Assembly: GCF_001422445.1 (NCBI RefSeq)
Contig: NZ_LMNA01000030.1
Span: 231-64,230 of the forward strand
Length of the DNA stretch: 64,000 bases
Direction: 5' to 3'
Source: Pseudorhodoferax sp. Leaf274
Lineage (GTDB): Bacteria; Pseudomonadota; Gammaproteobacteria; Burkholderiales; Burkholderiaceae_C
Below the pieces are notes generated by a model. The model did not search any database and was not told the DNA's origin. It worked only from the letters and a program-made list of their open reading frames with translations. Below, one piece after another: positions 14,067 through 24,290 of this stretch (position 1 is the first letter of the stretch; every line of letters begins with the position of its first letter). Position numbers and translations under genes: made by a program.

Positions 14067-15032
14067 CTAGGCGGCGGCCGTGATGCCCGCCGCCTGCGTT
14101 CGGATCCAGCGCCGGAACGCCGTCAGCGGCGGGTACCAGGCCCGGTTGGCGGCGCAGGCCAGGTAGTAGCGCCCGGCGCTGCGGCAGCGCACGTCGACGG
14201 CCGGCACCAGGCTGCCGCGCGCCAGTTCTTCCTGGAACAGGAACTCCGGCAGCAGCGCCACGCCCAGGCCGGCCGCGGCCGCCTGCATGGCGGTGGCGAA
14301 CTGGTCGGTGCTGACGGACGTGCCGGCGCGCTGCGCGCTGCGGTGCTGGGCACCCTGGGGCGGACCGGCGGCGGCCATTCCTGCATCGGCATGCAAGGCC
14401 AGGCCCTGGCCTTCGAACCATTCGGCCCAGGCCTGCGGGCGCGAGGCCAGGTGCAGCAGCGGCGCGCCGAGCAGGTCGGCCGGTGCCGCGAAGCCGTGTT
14501 GCGCCTTGAGCGCGCGCGAGCAGGCGGGCACCACGGTCTCCTCGAACAGGAAGTCGAGCTCGGCGCGCGGCCACTCGGGCGCACCGTAGTGCAGGGCGGC
14601 GTCCACGCCGTCGGTCTCCATGTTGAAGGGCTCCAGCCGCGTCACGAGGTTCAGCGTCACGCCGGGGTTCTGCTGCGTGAAGTCGGGCAGCAGCGGCGCG
14701 AGCCAGCGCGTGCCCATGGTGGGCAGGATGGCCAGCGTGAGCGTGCCGGCGTCCGGGCTGGCCTTCAGGCGCAGCGTGGCGTGGGAGATGGCGCGCAAGG
14801 CCTGCCGCACCTCCGCCGCATAGGCCTCGCCGGCGGGGGTCAGGCGCACGGTCTGGCGCTCGCGGGCGAACAGCTCGACGCCGACGATCTCCTCCAGTGC
14901 GCGGATCTGCCGGCTCACGGCGCTCTGGGTCAGGCTCAGCTCGTCGGCGGCCGCGGTGAACTTCTGCAACCGGGCGCAGGCCTCGAAGGCCACCAGCAGG
15001 CCCATGGAGGGGAGATATTTCCGTGCGTGCAT
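14067..15032 (-). CDS. LysR family regulator, GcvA-like, divergent from the tctC-D2HGDH-hglS operon
   Basis: This is a 321-residue LysR protein of the GcvA/AmpR-like subgroup. The N-terminal block Y-L-P-S-M-G-L-L-V-A-F-E-A is followed by the helix-turn-helix FTAAADELSLTQSAVSRQI near residues 25-43. The effector domain contains ILPTMGTRWLAPLLPDF near 96 and GVALLPEFLFQEE near 260. The ATG at 15032 was chosen because homology begins there. The frame stays open for 51 more codons into the divergent promoter region. A perfect 9-bp inverted repeat lies 115 nt upstream. The most likely target is the divergent operon at 15276-19114. Confidence 0.88.
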   Translation of the reverse strand: MHARKYLPSMGLLVAFEACARLQKFTAAADELSLTQSAVSRQIRALEEIVGVELFARERQTVRLTPAGEAYAAEVRQALRAISHATLRLKASPDAGTLTLAILPTMGTRWLAPLLPDFTQQNPGVTLNLVTRLEPFNMETDGVDAALHYGAPEWPRAELDFLFEETVVPACSRALKAQHGFAAPADLLGAPLLHLASRPQAWAEWFEGQGLALHADAGMAAAGPPQGAQHRSAQRAGTSVSTDQFATAMQAAAAGLGVALLPEFLFQEELARGSLVPAVDVRCRSAGRYYLACAANRAWYPPLTAFRRWIRTQAAGITAAA

Positions 15033-15147
15033 GAACTGGTGTGCGCTGAGGCCGACCGCCCAGGCGCCAGAAACGGCGCGCGCCGAGAGGGGATTTGATG
15101 AGAGCCGCGCGATTCTAGCCACGGCGTTGCTACGTATTTCCCGCAAT

Positions 15148-15172
15148 GGTTCATTCTGGTTTGGAATGAACC
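15148..15172. promoter_or_regulatory. perfect 9-bp inverted repeat, likely LysR operator
   Basis: GGTTCATTC (15148-15156) and GAATGAACC (15164-15172) are perfect inverted arms around a 7-bp spacer, with an internal T-N11-A LysR core. The site lies in the 243-bp divergent region between the LysR gene at 14067-15032 and the tctC gene starting at 15276. That is the expected place for an operator controlling both. Confidence 0.6.
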
Positions 15173-15275
15173 TCTTCCGAAACATTGATTGATCTCTGGG
15201 CAGGTTGTCGCAACCATGCGTGGCTTTGCGGCGTGCCGCCTGCCGCTGCGCCACCGATTTCCGGAGCCCCCTTCG

Positions 15276-16280
15276 ATGACCCGATCCACCCTGTTCCAGA
15301 CCCTCCCGCGCAAGCATTTCCTCGCCACGCTGGCGCTGCTGGCCACCGGCCTCGCGGCGCCTGCGTGGGCCCAGGGCGACTACCCGAGCAAGCCCGTCAA
15401 GCTGGTCGTGCCCTTTTCGCCGGGCGGCAACACCGACCTCATCGCGCGCATGCTGGCGCAGGGCCTGGGCGAGCAGTTGGGCCAGCCCGTGATCGTGGAG
15501 AACCTGGCGGGCGCCAACGGCTCCATCGGCGCCAGCCGCGTCGCAGGCGCCCCCAACGACGGCTACACGCTGCTGTTCGGCACGGCCGGCACCCAGGCCA
15601 TCAACCAGAGCCTGTACCGCAACCTGGGCGAGAAGAACCTGGCCGACTACGAGTACGTGGCGCTCGTGACCAGCATCCCCAACGTGCTGGTCGTCAATGA
15701 AAGCAAGACGCCGGTGCGCACGGTGGCCGACTTCGTGGCGGCCGAGCGCAAGCGTGGCGCCGGCCTGAGCTATGGCTCGCCGGGCACGGGCTCGACGGTG
15801 CACCTGTCGGGCGAGCTGTTCAAGACCGCCACCAAACTGGACCTGCTGCACGTGCCCTACAAGGGCAGCGCACCGGCGCTGACCGACCTCATGGGCGGGC
15901 AGATCGACTTCATCTTCGAGAACGTCACGCCTGCGCTGCCGTTCGTGCAGTCGGGCAAGCTGCGCGCGCTGGCCGTGACCTCGGCCGAGCGCCTGCCCGC
16001 GCTGCCCAACGTGCCGACCATGAAGGAGAGCGGCTACCCCGACTTCGTGACGGCCACCTGGAACGGCGTGCTGGCGCCCAAGGGCACGGCACCGGCCATC
16101 CTCAAGCGGCTGCAGGACGCCACGCTCAAGGTGGCCGGCAGCGCCGACTTCAAGACCCGCGTGACGGCGCTGGGCGGCGAGGTGCGCCTGCTCGAGTCCA
16201 CCGCGTTCCGCGACTTCACGCGCACCGAGTACCAGCACTGGGGCGCCATCATCAAGAACGCCGGCGTGACGGTGCAATGA
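15276..16280 (+). CDS. tripartite tricarboxylate transporter (Bug/TctC) binding protein
   Basis: This is a 334-residue periplasmic binding protein of the TctC/Bug family. A signal peptide (about residues 1-29, ending APAWAQ) is followed by the mature start GDYPSKPVKLVVPFSPGGNTD. VIVENLAGANGSIG and LLHVPYKGSAPALTDLMGG are also family signatures. Bug proteins bind carboxylates such as citrate, glutamate or nicotinate. No TctA or TctB membrane subunit is nearby. The stop overlaps the next gene's ATG (ATGA), so it is translationally coupled to a D-2-hydroxyglutarate dehydrogenase-like gene and an HglS homologue. Its ligand may therefore be a C5-C6 dicarboxylate (inference). Confidence 0.9.
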   Translation: MTRSTLFQTLPRKHFLATLALLATGLAAPAWAQGDYPSKPVKLVVPFSPGGNTDLIARMLAQGLGEQLGQPVIVENLAGANGSIGASRVAGAPNDGYTLLFGTAGTQAINQSLYRNLGEKNLADYEYVALVTSIPNVLVVNESKTPVRTVADFVAAERKRGAGLSYGSPGTGSTVHLSGELFKTATKLDLLHVPYKGSAPALTDLMGGQIDFIFENVTPALPFVQSGKLRALAVTSAERLPALPNVPTMKESGYPDFVTATWNGVLAPKGTAPAILKRLQDATLKVAGSADFKTRVTALGGEVRLLESTAFRDFTRTEYQHWGAIIKNAGVTVQ

Positions 16281-17695
16281 GCTCTTTGATCGAGACCCTG
16301 GCCGGCATCGTCGGCGCGGCCCATGTGCTGACGGGCGAGGACGCAGCCGGCTACGAGCAGGACTGGCGCCGCCGTGCCCAGGGCCGCGCGCTGTGCGTGG
16401 TGCGGCCGGGCTCCACGCAGGAGGTGGCCGCGGTGGTGCAGGCCTGCGCCGGGGCCGGCGTGGCCATCGTGCCGCAGGGCGGCAACACCGGCCTGGTGGC
16501 CGGCTCCGTGCCCGACGGTTCGGGCACGCAGGTGTTGCTGAGCCTGCGCCGCATGGCGGCCGTGCGCGCTGTCGATCCGCACAACATGACCATCACGGTC
16601 GAGGCCGGCTGCATCCTGCAGACGCTGCAGGAGGCGGCCGACGCGGCGGGTTTCCTGTTCCCGCTGAGCCTGGGTGCCGAGGGCAGCTGCACGATCGGCG
16701 GCAACCTCGCCACCAACGCGGGCGGCACCCAGGTGGTGCGCTACGGCAATGCGCGCGAGCTGTGCCTGGGCCTGGAGGTCGTCACGGCCCAGGGTCGCAC
16801 CTGGGACGGGCTGGCCGGCCTGCGCAAGGACAACACGGGCTACGACCTGCGCGACCTGTTCGTCGGCAGCGAGGGCACGCTGGGCATCATCACGGCCGCC
16901 ACGCTGCGGCTGTACCCCAAGCCGGCCGCGCAGCTGACGGCCTGGGCGGCCGTGCCGTCGCTGGAGGACGCCAACCGGCTGCTGGGCCTGGCGCACCAGC
17001 ACCTGGCCGCGGGCCTCACGGGCTTCGAGCTCATGAACCGGTTCGCGCTGGGCCTGGTGGACAAGCACTACCCGCAGCTGCGCGTGCCGATGTGGCAGGA
17101 CACGCCCTGGTGCGTGCTGCTGGAAATCTCCGACCACGAATCCGAAGCGCATGCGCGCGGCCTGTTCGAGCGGCTGCTGGAGACCGCGTTCGAGCAGGGC
17201 ACCGTGGCCGACGCCATCGTGGCCGAGAGCATGAAGCAGGCACACGACCTCTGGCACATCCGCGAGAGCATCACGCTGGCCCAGGCCGAGGAGGGCTTGA
17301 ACATCAAGCACGACATCTCGATCCCGGTCTCGCGCATCCCCGACTTCGTGCGCGCGGCCGATGCCGCGCTGCTGGCGGCCGTGCCGGGCGTGCGCTTCGT
17401 CAACTTCGGGCACCTGGGCGACGGCAACCTGCACTACAACATCCAGGCGCCCGCCGAGGGCGATTCCAGGGCGTTCGTGCAGCAGCACGAGGAGCAGATC
17501 ACGGGCATCGTCTACGACACCGTGAGCGCGTACGGCGGCTCGATCTCGGCCGAGCACGGCATCGGCGAGCTCAAGCGCCACAAGCTGCCGCTGCACAAGT
17601 CGCCCGTGGCGCTGGACCTCATGCACGCCGTCAAGAACGCCTTCGACCCGCTGGGCACCATGAACCCGGGCCGGGTTCTGGCGCCGCAACGCTGA
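16277..17695 (+). CDS. FAD-linked 2-hydroxyacid dehydrogenase, likely D-2-hydroxyglutarate dehydrogenase
   Basis: This is a 472-residue flavoprotein of the GlcD/D2HGDH type. The PCMH FAD-binding domain covers roughly residues 35-215, with IVPQGGNTGLVAGSVP near 69 and GGNLATNAGGTQVVRYGNA near 141. FVGSEGTLGIITAATLRL lies near 194. The C-terminal FAD-oxidase domain has the family signatures KHDISIPVS near 344, NFGHLGDGNLHYN near 376 and S-A-E-H-G-I-G near 425. The family includes D-lactate, glycolate and D-2-hydroxyglutarate dehydrogenases. The HglS-like gene 36 nt downstream would make D-2-hydroxyglutarate from 2-oxoadipate, so oxidation of that product to 2-oxoglutarate is the favoured role. 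It overlaps tctC by 4 nt. Confidence 0.85.
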   Translation: MSSLIETLAGIVGAAHVLTGEDAAGYEQDWRRRAQGRALCVVRPGSTQEVAAVVQACAGAGVAIVPQGGNTGLVAGSVPDGSGTQVLLSLRRMAAVRAVDPHNMTITVEAGCILQTLQEAADAAGFLFPLSLGAEGSCTIGGNLATNAGGTQVVRYGNARELCLGLEVVTAQGRTWDGLAGLRKDNTGYDLRDLFVGSEGTLGIITAATLRLYPKPAAQLTAWAAVPSLEDANRLLGLAHQHLAAGLTGFELMNRFALGLVDKHYPQLRVPMWQDTPWCVLLEISDHESEAHARGLFERLLETAFEQGTVADAIVAESMKQAHDLWHIRESITLAQAEEGLNIKHDISIPVSRIPDFVRAADAALLAAVPGVRFVNFGHLGDGNLHYNIQAPAEGDSRAFVQQHEEQITGIVYDTVSAYGGSISAEHGIGELKRHKLPLHKSPVALDLMHAVKNAFDPLGTMNPGRVLAPQR

Positions 17696-17731
17696 CCCAC
17701 CGTTTTCCCCCATCCCCACGTTTCCATCGCC

Positions 17732-19114
17732 ATGCCAACGTTTGCCAGTTCGGACCAGATCCGCGACCTGTTCTCCCGGTCCATGTCGGCCATGTACAAG
17801 ACCGAGGTGCCGCAGTACGGCATCTTGCTCGACCTGGTCGCGGACATCAACCGCGCGACGCTCGAGGCGGACCCCGGCCTGCGCGGGCAGCTGGAGGCCG
17901 CCGACGAGCTGCGCCGCCTGGATGTCGAGCGCCACGGCGCGATCCGGCTGGGCACGGCCCGCGAGCTGGCCGACATGCGGCGCATCTTCTGCGTGATGGG
18001 CATGCACCCGGTCGGCTACTACGACCTGTCGGTCGCCGGCGTGCCCGTGCACGCGACGGCCTTCCGCCCGGTGGACGACGCGGCGCTGCGCAACAACCCG
18101 TTCCGCGTGTTCACCTCGCTGCTGCGCCTGGACCTGGTGGCCGATGCCGCCGTGCGCGAGCAGGCCCAGGCCATCCTGGCCCGGCGCGCGATCTTCACGC
18201 CGCGCGCGCTCGAACTCACGGCGCTGGCCGAGCAGGCCGGCGGCCTCTCGGCGCAGCAGGCCGCGGAGTTCGTGCAGGAGGTGACGCAGACCTTCCGCTG
18301 GCACAGCGAGGCCACCGTGAGCCACGCCAGCTACCGCCAGCTGCACGGCGCGCACCGGCTGGTGGCCGACGTGGTCTCGTTCAAGGGGCCGCACATCAAC
18401 CACCTGACGCCGCGCACGCTGGACATCGACGCGGCCCAGGCCGAGATGCCCCGCCGCGGCATCGCCGCCAAGGACGTGGTGGAAGGCCCGCCGCGCCGCC
18501 GGCACGCCATCTTGCTGCGCCAGACCAGCTTCAAGGCGCTGGAAGAACCCATCGTGTTCGCCGGGGATGGCGCCGATGGCTCGCACACCGCGCGCTTCGG
18601 CGAGATCGAGCAGCGCGGCATGGCGCTCACGCGGGCGGGCCGCGCGCTGTACGACCGCTTGCTGGCGGGCGTGCGGTCGATGCAGGGCGCCGGCAGCGCC
18701 TCGGCCGACTACAGCGAGCGGCTGGCAGCGGCGTTCCGCGAATTCCCGGACGACCTGGACACGCTGCTGTCGCAGGGCCTGGCCTTCTTCCGCTGGCGCG
18801 TGGCCGATGCGGACGGCCTGGCCCGCGTGGCCCGAAGCGGCGCCGCGTTCGACCTGGACGCGCTGCGCGGCCAGGGCATCGTGGCGGCCAGCCCCATCGT
18901 CTACGAGGACTTCCTGCCCGTCAGCGCGGCCGGCATCTTCCAGTCCAACCTGGGCGGGGCCGAGCAGAAGAGCTATGCCGCCAACGCCGCCCAGGAGGCC
19001 TTCGAGGCGGCCCTGGGCGCCCCGGTGGCCGACGAGATCGCGCTGTACGCGCAGAGCCAGCAGGCCTCCATCGAGGCCGTGCGGCAGCAGTACCTGGCGC
19101 GGCAGGCCGGCTGA
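17732..19114 (+). CDS. hglS: 2-oxoadipate dioxygenase/decarboxylase family protein (DUF1338, HglS-like)
   Basis: This is a 460-residue protein of the DUF1338/YdcJ family. HglS of Pseudomonas putida is an Fe(II) enzyme of VOC fold that turns 2-oxoadipate, O2 and water into D-2-hydroxyglutarate and CO2 in D-lysine catabolism. Metal ligands reported for that enzyme map plausibly to His68 (LDVERHGAIRLG), His224 (GPHINHLTPRTLDID) and a Glu of FGEIEQRG (291 or 293). The substrate-guiding Arg maps to Arg72. It is the last gene of the tctC-dehydrogenase-hglS operon. The next gene is convergent, 15 nt away. The family assignment is firm; the substrate is inferred from family and neighbour. Confidence 0.87.
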   Translation: MPTFASSDQIRDLFSRSMSAMYKTEVPQYGILLDLVADINRATLEADPGLRGQLEAADELRRLDVERHGAIRLGTARELADMRRIFCVMGMHPVGYYDLSVAGVPVHATAFRPVDDAALRNNPFRVFTSLLRLDLVADAAVREQAQAILARRAIFTPRALELTALAEQAGGLSAQQAAEFVQEVTQTFRWHSEATVSHASYRQLHGAHRLVADVVSFKGPHINHLTPRTLDIDAAQAEMPRRGIAAKDVVEGPPRRRHAILLRQTSFKALEEPIVFAGDGADGSHTARFGEIEQRGMALTRAGRALYDRLLAGVRSMQGAGSASADYSERLAAAFREFPDDLDTLLSQGLAFFRWRVADADGLARVARSGAAFDLDALRGQGIVAASPIVYEDFLPVSAAGIFQSNLGGAEQKSYAANAAQEAFEAALGAPVADEIALYAQSQQASIEAVRQQYLARQAG

Positions 19115-19129
19115 CCTGCGGCGACGGCG

Positions 19130-20731
19130 TCACGCGCTGACGCCGACCTGGTTGCGGCCCTTGCGCTTGGCCTCGTAGAGCGCGGCGTCGGCCGCCTTCA
19201 GCAGTGCCTGCTCGGTGTCCTGCGGGCCGGGCACGGCGGCCGCCACGCCCAGGCTGATGGTCACCTTGCCCGCCACCACGGCGGCGTGCGGGATGTCCAT
19301 GGCGGCCACCGCGGTACGCGCCGCCTCGGCCACCATGGTGGCGCCGAGCACGTCGGTCTGCGGCAGCAGCAGCACCATCTCCTCGCCGCCGTAGCGCGCG
19401 ACGAAGTCCTCGGGCCGCTTGACGGTGGCGCGCAGCGCCGCGGACACGCGGCGCAGGCATTCGTCGCCCTCGACATGGCCGTAGTGGTCGTTGTACTTCT
19501 TGAACGCGTCCACATCGACCATGACCACCGCCAGCGGGCCGCCCTCGCGCTGCGCCTGGCGAAAGACGCGCGCGAAGCGACGGTCGAAGTAGCGCCGGTT
19601 GGGCAGCCGGGTGAGGTCGTCGAAACGGGCCAGCGCGGCCAGTTTCTCGTTGGCGTTGGCCAGCGCATCGCGCGCCTCGCGCAGGCCGGCCTCGGCCTGC
19701 AGGCGCTGCGCCATCATGCGGCGCGTGTAGGCGCCGGCGCGCTCCAGCAGCAGGCACAGGAAGACGACCCAGACCGTCTGCAGCGCCGAGTTGAGGCGCC
19801 AGTTGGCCAGCACCTGGTTCTTGCCGGCCGCGACACTCACCTGCAAGGGGTAGCTGCGCGCGTGCTCGAAGCTGATCAGCCGTTCCACGCCGTCCAGCGG
19901 CGAGCGCGCCTCGGTCGTGCCGGAGCGGTGCGTCTCCAGGGTGGTGCGCACCGCCGACGGCGGCAGCGGCTTGCCGATGTCAGCGTCGATCGAGGGGTTG
20001 CGCGCCACCATGCGGCCGGCCACCGTGAGCAGGATCGCGCCCTCGCCGACGTCGAACCGCTCCAGCACGCCGCGCAGGTGCGGCACGCTCAGCGTGGCCA
20101 GCGCCACGCCCGCGAAGCGGCCGTCGATGTCGTTGAGCCGGCGCGAGACCGGCACGATCCACTCGCCGGACGAACGGCTCAGGATCGGCGGGCTGACGAG
20201 GACCGAGGCGCTCTGGCTGTCCCGGTGGTGGATGAAGTAGGCGCGGTCGGCGTTGTTCCAGCTGGGGTCCCACTGCGGCACCGAGGTGGCGATCCACGCA
20301 CCTTTCGCGTCGTAGACGAACAGGCCCTTGAGCTGCGCCGTCCGCGCCACGTGGTTGACCATCAGCGGCTGCATGTCGTCCAGCGCTGACTGCGAGAAGT
20401 CCGTGCGCTCGATCTCGTAGACCAGGCTGTCCAGGATGTGGTCGGTCTCGGACACGGACGCTTCCATGCGTTCCGCCACGGCGCGTGCCAGGTTGGTGCT
20501 GGCCAGGTGCGCCTGCGCGATGGCATGGGCGCGCGCGTCGACGATGAACCAGACGTTGGTGGCCAGCAGCGCCAGGCAGACAAAGACCACCATCAGCCGC
20601 GCGCGCCGGATCGGGTCGCGCGCCGGCGCGGGCGCGTCCGGCTGCGAGCCCAGGGGTGCAAGGTCGCTGAAGCCCGAAGCGGGGCCCAGGCGGGATTGCG
20701 GTGGAGGTTGAACGCCTTGTGGGGTGGGCAT
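19130..20731 (-). CDS. membrane diguanylate cyclase with periplasmic sensor domain
   Basis: This 533-residue protein is predicted to make c-di-GMP. Membrane segment 1 is at about residues 46-64. A periplasmic dCache-like sensor region spans about 70-305, with repeated W-I and R-D-S motifs typical of double-Cache domains. Membrane segment 2 lies near 310-330, then a short helix, then a GGDEF domain from about 360. The active-site motif is GGEEM near 446-450, a tolerated variant of GGEEF. The inhibitory I-site RPED lies exactly five residues before it, so product inhibition is likely. The ATG at 20731 leaves a 45-residue cytoplasmic tail; longer upstream starts are low-complexity and were not used. 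No partner gene is adjacent. Confidence 0.9.
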   Translation of the reverse strand: MPTPQGVQPPPQSRLGPASGFSDLAPLGSQPDAPAPARDPIRRARLMVVFVCLALLATNVWFIVDARAHAIAQAHLASTNLARAVAERMEASVSETDHILDSLVYEIERTDFSQSALDDMQPLMVNHVARTAQLKGLFVYDAKGAWIATSVPQWDPSWNNADRAYFIHHRDSQSASVLVSPPILSRSSGEWIVPVSRRLNDIDGRFAGVALATLSVPHLRGVLERFDVGEGAILLTVAGRMVARNPSIDADIGKPLPPSAVRTTLETHRSGTTEARSPLDGVERLISFEHARSYPLQVSVAAGKNQVLANWRLNSALQTVWVVFLCLLLERAGAYTRRMMAQRLQAEAGLREARDALANANEKLAALARFDDLTRLPNRRYFDRRFARVFRQAQREGGPLAVVMVDVDAFKKYNDHYGHVEGDECLRRVSAALRATVKRPEDFVARYGGEEMVLLLPQTDVLGATMVAEAARTAVAAMDIPHAAVVAGKVTISLGVAAAVPGPQDTEQALLKAADAALYEAKRKGRNQVGVSA

Positions 20732-21444: not shown

Positions 21445-21521
21445 TGGCCTGCCCGACAGGAATCGAACCTGTGACCCACAGCTTAGAAGGCTGTTGCTCT
21501 ATCCAACTGAGCTACGGGCAG
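21445..21521 (-). tRNA. tRNA-Arg, anticodon UCU
   Basis: A complete cloverleaf reads on the minus strand. The acceptor CTGCCCG pairs with CGGGCAG. The D-stem is GCTC/GAGC and the anticodon stem is ACAGC/GCTGT around the loop CTTCTAA (anticodon TCT, reading AGA). The T-stem is ACAGG/CCTGT around TTCGATT. Discriminator G is followed by an encoded CCA at 21445-21447. Total length is 77 nt with CCA. Its 5' 23 nt (21499-21521) also form the 3' end of the upstream coding sequence on the same strand. Confidence 0.97.
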
Positions 21522-22324: not shown

Positions 22325-23287
22325 TCATTCTGGCCGGATGCCGGCCTGGCGCGCCACCTGCTGCCAGCGTGCGCTTTCCTGGGCGATGTACTGGGCGAAG
22401 GCCTGCGGCGTGGAGGGCGCGGCGGCCACACCCTGCCGGGCGAACTGCGCCTGCACCTCGGGCTGGGCCAGCACCCTGGCCAGCGCGCGTTCGAGCCGCG
22501 CCACGGCCTCGGGCGGGGTGCCGCGCGGCGCCACGATGCCTTGCCAGGAACTCACGTCGTAGCCGGCCAGGCCCGATTCGGCAACCGTCGGCAGCTCCGG
22601 CGCCACCGCCGATCGCGTGGCCGTGCTGACCGCCAGCGCACGCACCTTGCCGCTGCGTGCCTGCGGGTACAGCGTGGAGATCGGGTCGAACAGCACCTGC
22701 ACCTGGCCTCCGATGAGGTCGGCGATGGCGGGCGCGCTGCCCTTGTAGGGCACATGCGTCATGCGGATGCCGGCCATGTGGTTGAACTGCTCCACCGCCA
22801 GCTGGACCGAACTGCCGGCCGTGCCGAAGTTCAGCGCGCCGGGCCGGTCGCGGGCCAGCGCGATGAGCTCGGCCAGGGTCCTGGCCGGCACCTCGGGATG
22901 CACGGCCACGAGCAGCGGCTGCAACGCCACCATGCCCACCGGCGTGAAGCTGGCCACCGGATCGTAGGGCAGCTGCGCGAAGGTGGCGCCGTTGACGGCC
23001 AGCGTGGAGATGTTGCCCATCAGCAGCGTGTGCCCGTCGGGCGCGGCCTTGGCGGCGATGCCGCTGCCCAGGATGCCGCTCGCGCCGGCGCGGTTGTCCA
23101 CCACCACGCTCTGGCCCAGTTCCGTGCCCAGGCGGGCGGCGACGATGCGCGAGACCAGGTCGGTCACGCCGCCGGCGGGGAAGGGCACGATGAGCTGGAT
23201 CGGCCGGCCCGTGGCGTCCTGCGCCAGGGCCGTGCCGCCGCACAGCAGCGCAGCGCCGTGCAGCAGGAAGGTTCGGCGGCCCCGCAT
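22325..23287 (-). CDS. Bug/TctC binding protein, second of a tandem pair
   Basis: This is a 320-residue periplasmic carboxylate-binding protein. The signal peptide is at about residues 1-23 (GRRTFLLHGAALLCGGTALA). The mature part has the family motifs PIQLIVPFPAGGVTDLVSRI, VVDNRAGASGILG and MTHVPYKGSAPAIADLIGG. The RR near the N-terminus is Tat-like but weak. The ATG at 23287 is one base before the stop of the preceding TctC gene (23289-24290), giving tight coupling. An in-frame start 24 nt upstream would overlap that gene. No membrane subunits are visible. The ligand is unknown; the nearby CoA-transferase suggests a carboxylic acid that is later CoA-activated. Confidence 0.9.
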   Translation of the reverse strand: MRGRRTFLLHGAALLCGGTALAQDATGRPIQLIVPFPAGGVTDLVSRIVAARLGTELGQSVVVDNRAGASGILGSGIAAKAAPDGHTLLMGNISTLAVNGATFAQLPYDPVASFTPVGMVALQPLLVAVHPEVPARTLAELIALARDRPGALNFGTAGSSVQLAVEQFNHMAGIRMTHVPYKGSAPAIADLIGGQVQVLFDPISTLYPQARSGKVRALAVSTATRSAVAPELPTVAESGLAGYDVSSWQGIVAPRGTPPEAVARLERALARVLAQPEVQAQFARQGVAAAPSTPQAFAQYIAQESARWQQVARQAGIRPE

Positions 23288-23288
23288 G

Positions 23289-24290
23289 TCAGGCCACCTG
23301 CAGGCGCGCATCCTTGGCCACCTGCGTCCAGCGCGCGATCTCCTGGCGCACGTAGCGGTCGTAGGCCTCGGGCGTGCTGGTCACGGTGTCGGTGCCGAGC
23401 TCGGCCAGTTGCTTGCGCACGCCCTCGTTCGCCAGCACGTCTGCCATGGCCTGGTGCAGCCGCGCGACGATGGGCGCGGGCGTCTGCGCATGCACCATGA
23501 GCCCCTGCCAGGCGCTGGCCTCGTAGCCGGGCATCCAGCGCTCGGTGACGGTGGGCACGTCGGGCAGCGCGGGCAGGCGCTGCGCGCTGGTCACGGCCAG
23601 CGCACGCACGCGGCCGTCGCGGATGAAGGGCAGGGCGGAACTCATCGCATCCACGGCGAACTGGATCTGGCCGCCGGCCAGGTCCACCAGCGCCGGCGCG
23701 CTGCCCTTGTAGGGGATGTGCGTGGCCCGCAGCCCGTTGGCCTGCAGCAGCTGCACCGGGATCACGTGGGTGATGGTGCCGTTGCCGGCCGAGCCGTAGT
23801 TGTAGCGGTCCGGCGCCTGGCGCACGGCCTCGATGAACTCCTGCACGCTGTGCGCCGGGAAGGACGGGTGCACGATCAGCACCGTGGGCGCGGCCGCCGT
23901 CAGCGTCACGCCGCGCAACTGTGCCGGCTCGTAGGGCAGCTTGGGCGAGAGCGCTGCCGACAGCGCGAACGACGAGGTGTTGTAGAGCAGGGTGTGGCCG
24001 TCGGCAGGCGCCTTGGCCACCGCATCGGCCGCCAGCACCGCGTTGGCGCCGGGCTTGTTGTCCACCACCACGGGCTGGCCCAGCAGCGGCCCCAGGCGCG
24101 CGCCGACGATGCGCGCCACCACGTCGGTCGGGCCGCCGGCGGAAAAGCCGATGACCATGCGCAGCGGCTTGGACGGATAGCCCACCTGCGCCAGCACGGG
24201 CAGGGCCAGCGCGGCAGCGCCGCCGGCCAGGGTCTTCAAGGCGGTGCGGCGCCCCAGGGCTGGGGGTGGGGGCGCGGATCGGGTCGTCAT
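23289..24290 (-). CDS. Bug/TctC binding protein, first of a tandem pair
   Basis: This is a 333-residue TctC-family binding protein. The N-terminus carries LGRRTALKTLAGGAAALALP and a cleavage region at LPVLAQ, resembling a Tat or long Sec signal. The mature start GYPSKPLRMVIGFSAGGPTDVVARI, VVVDNKPGANAVLAADAV and THIPYKGSAPALVDLAGGQ are characteristic. It is only distantly similar to the neighbouring paralogue, so the duplication is old. Its gene is divergent from the LysR regulator at 24397, and the 106-bp spacer contains a 13-bp AT-rich site that recurs inverted in front of the CoA-transferase. Probably first gene of a three-gene operon. Confidence 0.9.
   Translation of the reverse strand: MTTRSAPPPPALGRRTALKTLAGGAAALALPVLAQVGYPSKPLRMVIGFSAGGPTDVVARIVGARLGPLLGQPVVVDNKPGANAVLAADAVAKAPADGHTLLYNTSSFALSAALSPKLPYEPAQLRGVTLTAAAPTVLIVHPSFPAHSVQEFIEAVRQAPDRYNYGSAGNGTITHVIPVQLLQANGLRATHIPYKGSAPALVDLAGGQIQFAVDAMSSALPFIRDGRVRALAVTSAQRLPALPDVPTVTERWMPGYEASAWQGLMVHAQTPAPIVARLHQAMADVLANEGVRKQLAELGTDTVTSTPEAYDRYVRQEIARWTQVAKDARLQVA

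Follow-up and report, generated by a model that had tools for sequence, protein, structure and literature searches.

A putative LysR-controlled hglS operon with a TctC-type binding protein, probably for 2-oxoadipate catabolism, in Pseudorhodoferax sp. Leaf274

Introduction

HglS of Pseudomonas putida is active on 2-oxoadipate alone among seven 2-oxoacids, and its activity is abolished by the substitution R74A (PMC7286885). Nine active-site residues have been named for D-2-hydroxyglutarate dehydrogenase (D2HGDH), of which Thr390 and Tyr432 are highly conserved and Lys401 and Asn443 strictly conserved; GlcD and the D-lactate dehydrogenases have no equivalent of Lys401, and the residues for the C5 carboxylate are replaced in them (PMC7801405). 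Among solute-binding proteins of the TctC type, TphC, like most such proteins reported, is encoded away from its membrane partners, the tphC gene lying within the tph catabolic operon (PMC8556258), and most of the binding proteins of this kind in Bordetella pertussis are likewise orphans, with no membrane partner encoded close by (PMC5812351). AdpC of R. palustris (RPA4515), also an orphan, binds dicarboxylates of C6-C8 (PMC8556258) or C6-C9 (PMC5812351), and an oxoadipate-AdpC complex is mentioned in the former paper. The present analysis concerns a locus of Pseudorhodoferax sp. Leaf274, contained in a DNA stretch of 64,000 nucleotides (the window), in which genes for an HglS, a D2HGDH-type flavoprotein and a TctC-type protein stand together opposite a LysR gene.

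Neither the enzymes nor the presence of orphan TctC proteins within catabolic operons is new. What appears to be new is that a binding protein and the DNA switch of the regulator belong to the same control unit as hglS. The literature searched, with many subscription journals outside its reach, contained no report of a TctC protein tied to hglS or of the operator described below, and a paper on dicarboxylates based on randomly barcoded transposon sequencing (PMC12543098) mentions neither TctC nor oxoadipate. Gene order, protein families, active-site residues, operator conservation and the co-occurrence of tctC with hglS were read from the sequences themselves. The favoured interpretation, considered probable, is that of a LysR-controlled catabolic operon for 2-oxoadipate, in which TctC would capture a C6 (or C5) dicarboxylate.

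Organisation of the locus

The gene order is LysR (minus strand), inverted repeat, tctC, flavoprotein gene and hglS, with the following features.

14067-15032, minus strand: LysR-type regulator gene, divergent from the operon and just outside 15148-19114; Pfam HTH_1 and LysR_substrate domains
15148-15172: predicted operator, a perfect 9-bp inverted repeat GGTTCATTC-N7-GAATGAACC (25 bases) holding a T-N11-A LysR box
15276-16280, plus strand: tctC, orphan periplasmic solute-binding protein of the tripartite tricarboxylate transporter family (Pfam TctC, 223 bits against a cut-off of 27)
16277-17695, plus strand: D-2-hydroxyglutarate dehydrogenase-type flavoprotein with flavin adenine dinucleotide and metal (FAD_binding_4 and FAD-oxidase_C domains; human D2HGDH, 306 bits)
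17732-19114, plus strand: hglS, 2-oxoadipate dioxygenase/decarboxylase (hydroxyglutarate synthase, former DUF1338; NCBIfam NF049974)

This is the layout given in an initial annotation of the window, which had a LysR gene and a 9-bp inverted repeat facing an operon of tctC, an overlapping flavoprotein gene and a DUF1338 gene; the overlap is of 4 bases (ATGA).

The two enzymes

The HglS protein scores 531 bits with Pfam HGLS (PF07063) and 702 bits with the NCBIfam equivalog model HGlSynHglS (NF049974), above the cut-off of 550. In an alignment with the P. putida enzyme (6w1g), His70, Arg74, His226, Glu294, Val402 and Ser403 fall on H68, R72, H224, E291, V397 and S398, and the iron ligands previously proposed (His68, His224 and a Glu of FGEIEQRG) coincide with published residues, the glutamate being E291, the first of that motif. 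H224, E291, V397 and S398 are identical in 100 of 100 aligned HglS rows (duplicate records included); H68 and R72 are kept in 99, the remaining row having a gap.

The flavoprotein matched 3pm9 (458 bits) and human D2HGDH, and more weakly glycolate oxidase and D-lactate dehydrogenases. Eight of the nine published active-site residues are identical (Arg386, Thr390, Lys401, His434, His441, Asn443, Glu475 and His476 of the human enzyme), the sole change being phenylalanine (F377) at the position of Tyr432. The metal ligands H379, H386 and E426 correspond to His434, His441 and Glu475, and the C5-carboxylate set retains T333, K344 (human Lys401) and N388, with F377 for Tyr432. A glycolate or D-lactate enzyme, the outcome that would have spoken against the initial annotation, was rejected by sequence, the score with the GlcD model (NCBIfam TIGR00387) being 261 bits, far under the cut-off of 568, and the equivalents of Lys401 and Asn443 being kept. 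The host genome also encodes a second flavoprotein, 72% identical, and two paralogues of 40-42% identity with serine or asparagine at the Lys401 position.

Taken together, the equivalog score and residues of HglS and the D2HGDH lysine of the flavoprotein give good support to the route from 2-oxoadipate through D-2-hydroxyglutarate to 2-oxoglutarate, and the enzyme pair that had been named at the outset stands on this evidence. It is highly probable that both proteins perform the reactions that their residues indicate.

The LysR regulator and its predicted operator

The regulator has the HTH_1 and LysR_substrate domains, divergent position and T-N11-A palindrome of the LysR type. Elsewhere in the Alpha- and Betaproteobacteria, LysR proteins encoded immediately opposite hglS often share 48-61% identity with it. 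The inverted repeat at 15148-15172 is the sole match in the window at three mismatches or fewer, and none of 100 shuffles contained any match. In related loci of Alpha- and Betaproteobacteria, 56 gaps separate the LysR gene from its divergent neighbour, and 53 of them contain the pattern TTCATTC-N7-GAATGAA with 11 or more of the 14 arm bases; 5 of 118 divergent gaps between other genes and 1.4% of shuffles do so. Lowering the threshold to 10 bases gives 55 of 56, 26 of 118 and 10.5%. Both sets of intergenic regions were drawn from the same loci. The arms are conserved across the LysR gaps and the spacer is variable.

At the level of whole genomes, the exact core TCATTC-N7-GAATGA was present in 8 of the 10 searched, with no match to the reversed control pattern. 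It lies upstream of a tctC of the same lineage in 7 of these 8 (G003 has one extra copy), and in the host genome (6.7 Mb) it is single, at the 15148-15172 repeat. In G315, of the Delftia group, the sole exact core genome-wide is about 120 bp upstream of an unlinked tctC, and the hglS promoter has a copy with one mismatch. When one mismatch is allowed there are five sites in G315 (one in the hglS promoter), ten in G246 (among them one before hglS and another before tctC), ten in G204 and two in the host genome. Of 22 other such sites 11 were inspected, and 10 of these start inside an open reading frame (ORF) of at least 120 codons, which is a weak test in GC-rich DNA.

Seven genomes of the Delftia/Comamonas group carry an unlinked tctC, and their best upstream boxes hold 10, 11, 11, 11, 12, 12 and 13 of the 14 arm bases. 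From box to first aligned codon the distance is 126-147 bp (126 in the window), and a common AAACATTGATTGA-like stretch follows the boxes. The expectation per 400 bp is about 0.09 sites scoring at least 10 and 0.03 scoring at least 11. Among 11 paralogous tctC genes, three have a box of at least 10 of 14 and one reaches 11, the gene of Variovorax sp. E3, which is itself divergent from hglS.

On this conservation, regulation of the hglS operon by the divergent LysR through the 15148-15172 repeat is predicted with high confidence. Escherichia coli YdcI, the LysR protein beside ydcJ, was rejected as the same regulator, with 26% identity and a best box of 9 of 14 in the gap. Scans of 15030-19300 for sigma-70 promoters and terminators found nothing.

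The tctC lineage and its tie to hglS

Since the host genome carries at least 150 tctC genes (150 of 173 candidates scored), adjacency of tctC to hglS is by itself weak evidence, and the lineage of the gene is more informative. Its orthologues are 62-95% identical (72-77% in Pseudacidovorax, Delftia, Comamonas and a Pantoea-labelled record, 63% in Lampropedia), and next-best paralogues reach at most 49%. A tree sets the 11 paralogues apart by a fully supported branch, although it carries a warning of long branches at that point and of an unsure position for Lampropedia. Nine of 399 family genomes have the lineage (E <= 1e-95), and every one of these is among the 23 of 399 with hglS; these counts come from two separate draws of 399, possibly not identical, with four or five first-look candidates scored per genome. 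The hypergeometric probability of this co-occurrence is 1.3e-12 by genomes and 6e-5 by genera, kinship being ignored. In seven of the nine genomes tctC is beside hglS, and in G246 and G315 it is elsewhere. Within the genus hglS is present in five of six genomes, and the sole hglS-free one (G001) is also without the tctC lineage.

Two unlinked tctC genes of the Delftia group that were compared have no common neighbours; one has a LodA-type gene (lysine oxidase family) about 1.2 kb away and convergent, absent at the other.

Co-occurrence, together with an operator upstream of tctC even when it is unlinked, makes TctC very likely a part of the hglS regulon as predicted from sequence. That it serves the same pathway as HglS and the flavoprotein is also thought to be quite probable. 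The pairing had been called unusual; an orphan tctC in a catabolic operon is documented for TphC (PMC8556258) and tctC genes are abundant in the host, but this lineage was seen only in hglS-bearing genomes among those sampled, which upholds the specific part of that remark.

Genome setting

The locus had also been described as a self-contained and portable route. It is not self-contained, as tctA and tctB were not found within the operon and the genome has seven tctA genes in all. One relative, G204 of the Pseudacidovorax group, has tctA and tctB beyond LysR (L041:642-2652, minus strand) with one called ORF between, so that a whole transporter adjoins the operon; the other two Pseudacidovorax loci have different genes, as called, at that place. 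Nor is portability supported: a mobile island was rejected, no comparison with an empty site having been made, on the GC content, even at 70-73% across the locus, and on flanks common within the genus. The gene 3' of hglS is common to all four other Pseudorhodoferax loci, and that on the far side of LysR to three of the four as called, with the duplicate record of the fourth also carrying it.

A tRNA-Arg gene (tct; 21445-21521, minus strand) lies about 2.3 kb past hglS and is the sole tRNA gene found in the window. Further on (22325-24290, minus strand) are two more tctC genes in tandem with a 23-base overlap; the window has no second full-operator match.

hglS neighbourhoods and the lysine pathway

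The neighbourhood survey covered 98 loci: 22 from the family, the best 80 of at least 567 confirmed matches (named loci), and the window, less five duplicates. The named loci lean to close relatives because they are the best of a longer list. Genes were called with a home-made codon-usage caller, which called HglS in 95 of the 98 non-duplicate loci, and the neighbour clusters C2, C3, C5 and C11 were named by an NCBIfam scan of one representative each. Of the 95 loci, 65 had a LysR of the same cluster as a neighbour and 37 an AmaB-type dehydrogenase; 33 had an AmaA-like oxidase, 22 an aminotransferase-like protein, 22 a D2HGDH/GlcD-type flavoprotein and 10 a YdiJ-like protein. The AmaB representative was above its cut-off; the AmaA-like one, at 447 bits against 600, and the YdiJ-like one were below theirs. 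By the AmaB-type and AmaA-like counts, lysine/pipecolate breakdown is the commonest setting of hglS.

A TctC of cluster C6 was found within 4.2 kb of hglS in 16 of 94 loci, namely ten with a D2HGDH-type gene, five in Achromobacter with a dehydrogenase dependent on flavin mononucleotide (FMN), and Variovorax sp. E3. The combination of tctC and a D2HGDH-type gene near hglS, which the initial annotation had suggested looking for, thus recurs in 10 of the 94, but AmaA/AmaB neighbours are commoner. The ten comprise five Pseudorhodoferax, three of the Pseudacidovorax group, the record of Pantoea sp. 18069 and Lampropedia. The Pantoea record (L064) carries the operon; both its HglS and its TctC are placed with those of Comamonadaceae, so that its label is probably wrong. 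Lampropedia has the order HglS-TctC-D2HGDH, and its HglS is grouped with those of Comamonas and Delftia (support 92-93, in a quick tree without bootstrap from which HglS calls of fewer than 400 or more than 520 residues were excluded). This order and grouping suggest that the tctC/hglS association is not one inherited block. Variovorax sp. E3 and Achromobacter show the link too, with tctC genes of other lineages.

In the Achromobacter loci (L110, L126, L135, L141 and L142) a gene of the FMN-dependent 2-hydroxyacid dehydrogenase type comes after hglS, along with a different tctC (46-47%), and the upstream LysR is just 31-33% identical; this is possibly a parallel solution for 2-hydroxyglutarate oxidation. 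GlcD-like flavoproteins beside hglS at 11 loci of the Comamonas group and others (L046, L069, L071, L075-L077, L082, L102, L116, L121 and L131) belong to the same cluster as that of the window, but were not counted as D2HGDH because they have alanine at the Lys401 position, with Asn443 kept. Their substrate may differ from that of D2HGDH.

The prevalence of AmaA and AmaB raises the main competing explanation, that the operon supplies the last steps of lysine/pipecolate catabolism, as happens in Pseudomonas putida, with 2-oxoadipate formed inside the cell and TctC either importing a precursor from the lysine pathway or being a bystander from the very large tctC family. AmaB-type and AmaA-like genes are the commonest enzyme neighbours of hglS, AmaB was found in all six Pseudorhodoferax genomes searched (host included), and a random gene has roughly a 1 in 10 chance of a tctC within 2-3 kb, as estimated from the number of tctC genes. 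Nevertheless, no amaA or amaB was called within about 5.5 kb on either side of the window's hglS, so the locus is not of the lysine/pipecolate type. The host AmaB is on another contig, without an AmaA-like gene in the 15 kb inspected, to which the search for AmaA was confined, and G204, G215 (Lampropedia) and G315, all of which have hglS and the tctC lineage, gave no AmaB match at E <= 1e-100. A bystander role is unlikely because the operator accompanies tctC even when unlinked, and this explanation as a whole is regarded as rather unlikely. Next to the host AmaB gene (L162, G000:C27) are ABC transporter genes of the NMT1 type and a gene for a TauD-family dioxygenase, which seems an odd setting for an L-piperidine-6-carboxylate dehydrogenase.

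The ligand of TctC

The nearest solved relatives of TctC are 2dvz (228 bits), named BugE in PMC5812351, and then AdpC (5oei/5oku, 223 bits). Sixteen pocket or hinge positions were read from alignments, with 8hka as a stand-in for TphC numbering; 11 match AdpC and 9 match BugE. Ser154 and Thr155 are shared with AdpC and not with BugE, and the serine at 156 that is tied to C4 ligands (PMC8556258) is absent. The pocket leans weakly to a C6 ligand, and the chance that this is 2-oxoadipate itself is put at about even from the sequence comparisons.

A second alternative is scavenging of D-2-hydroxyglutarate (or D-malate), in which TctC would bind D-2-hydroxyglutarate, the flavoprotein would be the main enzyme and HglS a secondary feeder. 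The flavoprotein is of the D2HGDH type, human D2HGDH also oxidises D-malate well (PMC7801405), and the tctC/flavoprotein overlap is the tightest coupling in the operon. Yet in the Delftia-group loci L160 and L161 tctC has an hglS-type box and no flavoprotein relative was matched within the surrounding 13 kb, and the genome has the 72% identical second flavoprotein; scavenging is accordingly considered improbable. That TctC is a sensor signalling the presence of the acid, rather than part of a transporter, would suit the seven tctA against at least 150 tctC and recall the B. pertussis orphans (PMC5812351), but with no membrane sensor among the operon genes and with tctB-tctA adjoining the operon in G204 it is very improbable.

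Several findings weigh against import of 2-oxoadipate under LysR control as proposed here. The operon is without a membrane partner, and the presence of AmaB allows 2-oxoadipate to arise from pipecolate or lysine inside the cell, so that import is possibly unnecessary. BugE, a glutamate binder, scores slightly above AdpC, the aligned pocket is unlike that of AdpC at positions 31, 35, 150, 156 and 242, and the gap of 11 versus 9 is small. As regards the operator, the right arm is altered in three of the seven unlinked-tctC boxes (G246, G447 and G451), one of the seven has just 10 of 14, a level that 26 of the 118 control gaps reach, as do 3 of the 11 paralogous tctC genes, and the seven genomes stem from just two lineages. 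The Lampropedia cluster has no adjoining LysR or operator, the sole exact core copy in that genome being inside an unrelated gene about 20 kb from the cluster, and in the Pantoea-labelled record the best palindrome is the variant GGCATTC-N7-GAATGCC.

Proposed pathway and implications

For the 2-oxoadipate operon favoured here, we infer a ligand, an inducer, a direction of regulation and a mode of transport. In the periplasm TctC would bind a dicarboxylate of six (or five) carbons; 2-oxoadipate is the likeliest, with 2-aminoadipate and D-2-hydroxyglutarate as alternatives. A TctAB membrane unit, of which the genome encodes a few at other sites, would then receive the acid from TctC. Using O2 and Fe(II), HglS would turn 2-oxoadipate into D-2-hydroxyglutarate and CO2, and the flavoprotein would oxidise D-2-hydroxyglutarate to 2-oxoglutarate, which enters the tricarboxylic acid cycle. 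LysR would bind the TCATTC-N7-GAATGA operator and activate transcription when the acid of the pathway is present.

More broadly, and tentatively, a conserved LysR and operator may govern 2-oxoadipate oxidation in Alpha- and Betaproteobacteria, several Comamonadaceae having added a dedicated high-affinity 2-oxoadipate receptor, linked or unlinked. If TctC does bind 2-oxoadipate, this acid would be a nutrient taken from outside (e.g. from fungi or plants) as well as an intermediate of lysine breakdown. Many TctC-type proteins have no assigned ligand, and operator sharing with co-occurrence singles out one lineage among more than 100 paralogues, pointing to a directly testable ligand. The operator is in addition a means to seek further members of the hglS regulon, and the LysR protein is a candidate 2-oxoadipate sensor.

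Comparison with known systems

TctC belongs to the same family as AdpC but differs from it in five of the 16 aligned pocket or hinge residues. TphC is likewise an orphan of this family encoded with catabolic genes, although its ligand is terephthalate. The flavoprotein, unlike the human and bacterial D2HGDH enzymes, sits in a catabolic operon and has a 72% copy elsewhere in the genome. The HglS protein resembles P. putida HglS and E. coli YdcJ (57% identical to the latter) in scoring above the family cut-off, in having all of the published metal and substrate residues and in aligning over nearly the full length; its gene differs from theirs in being in an operon with tctC and a D2HGDH-type gene, and not beside amaA/amaB. 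The LysR-HglS-AmaA/AmaB loci of Rhizobium and others have the operator in common with the window, and their LysR is of one lineage with that of the window (identity often 55-60%). In the Rhizobium-type loci LysR faces hglS directly, with lysine/pipecolate-type genes after it, whereas in the window tctC and the flavoprotein gene are situated between LysR and hglS.

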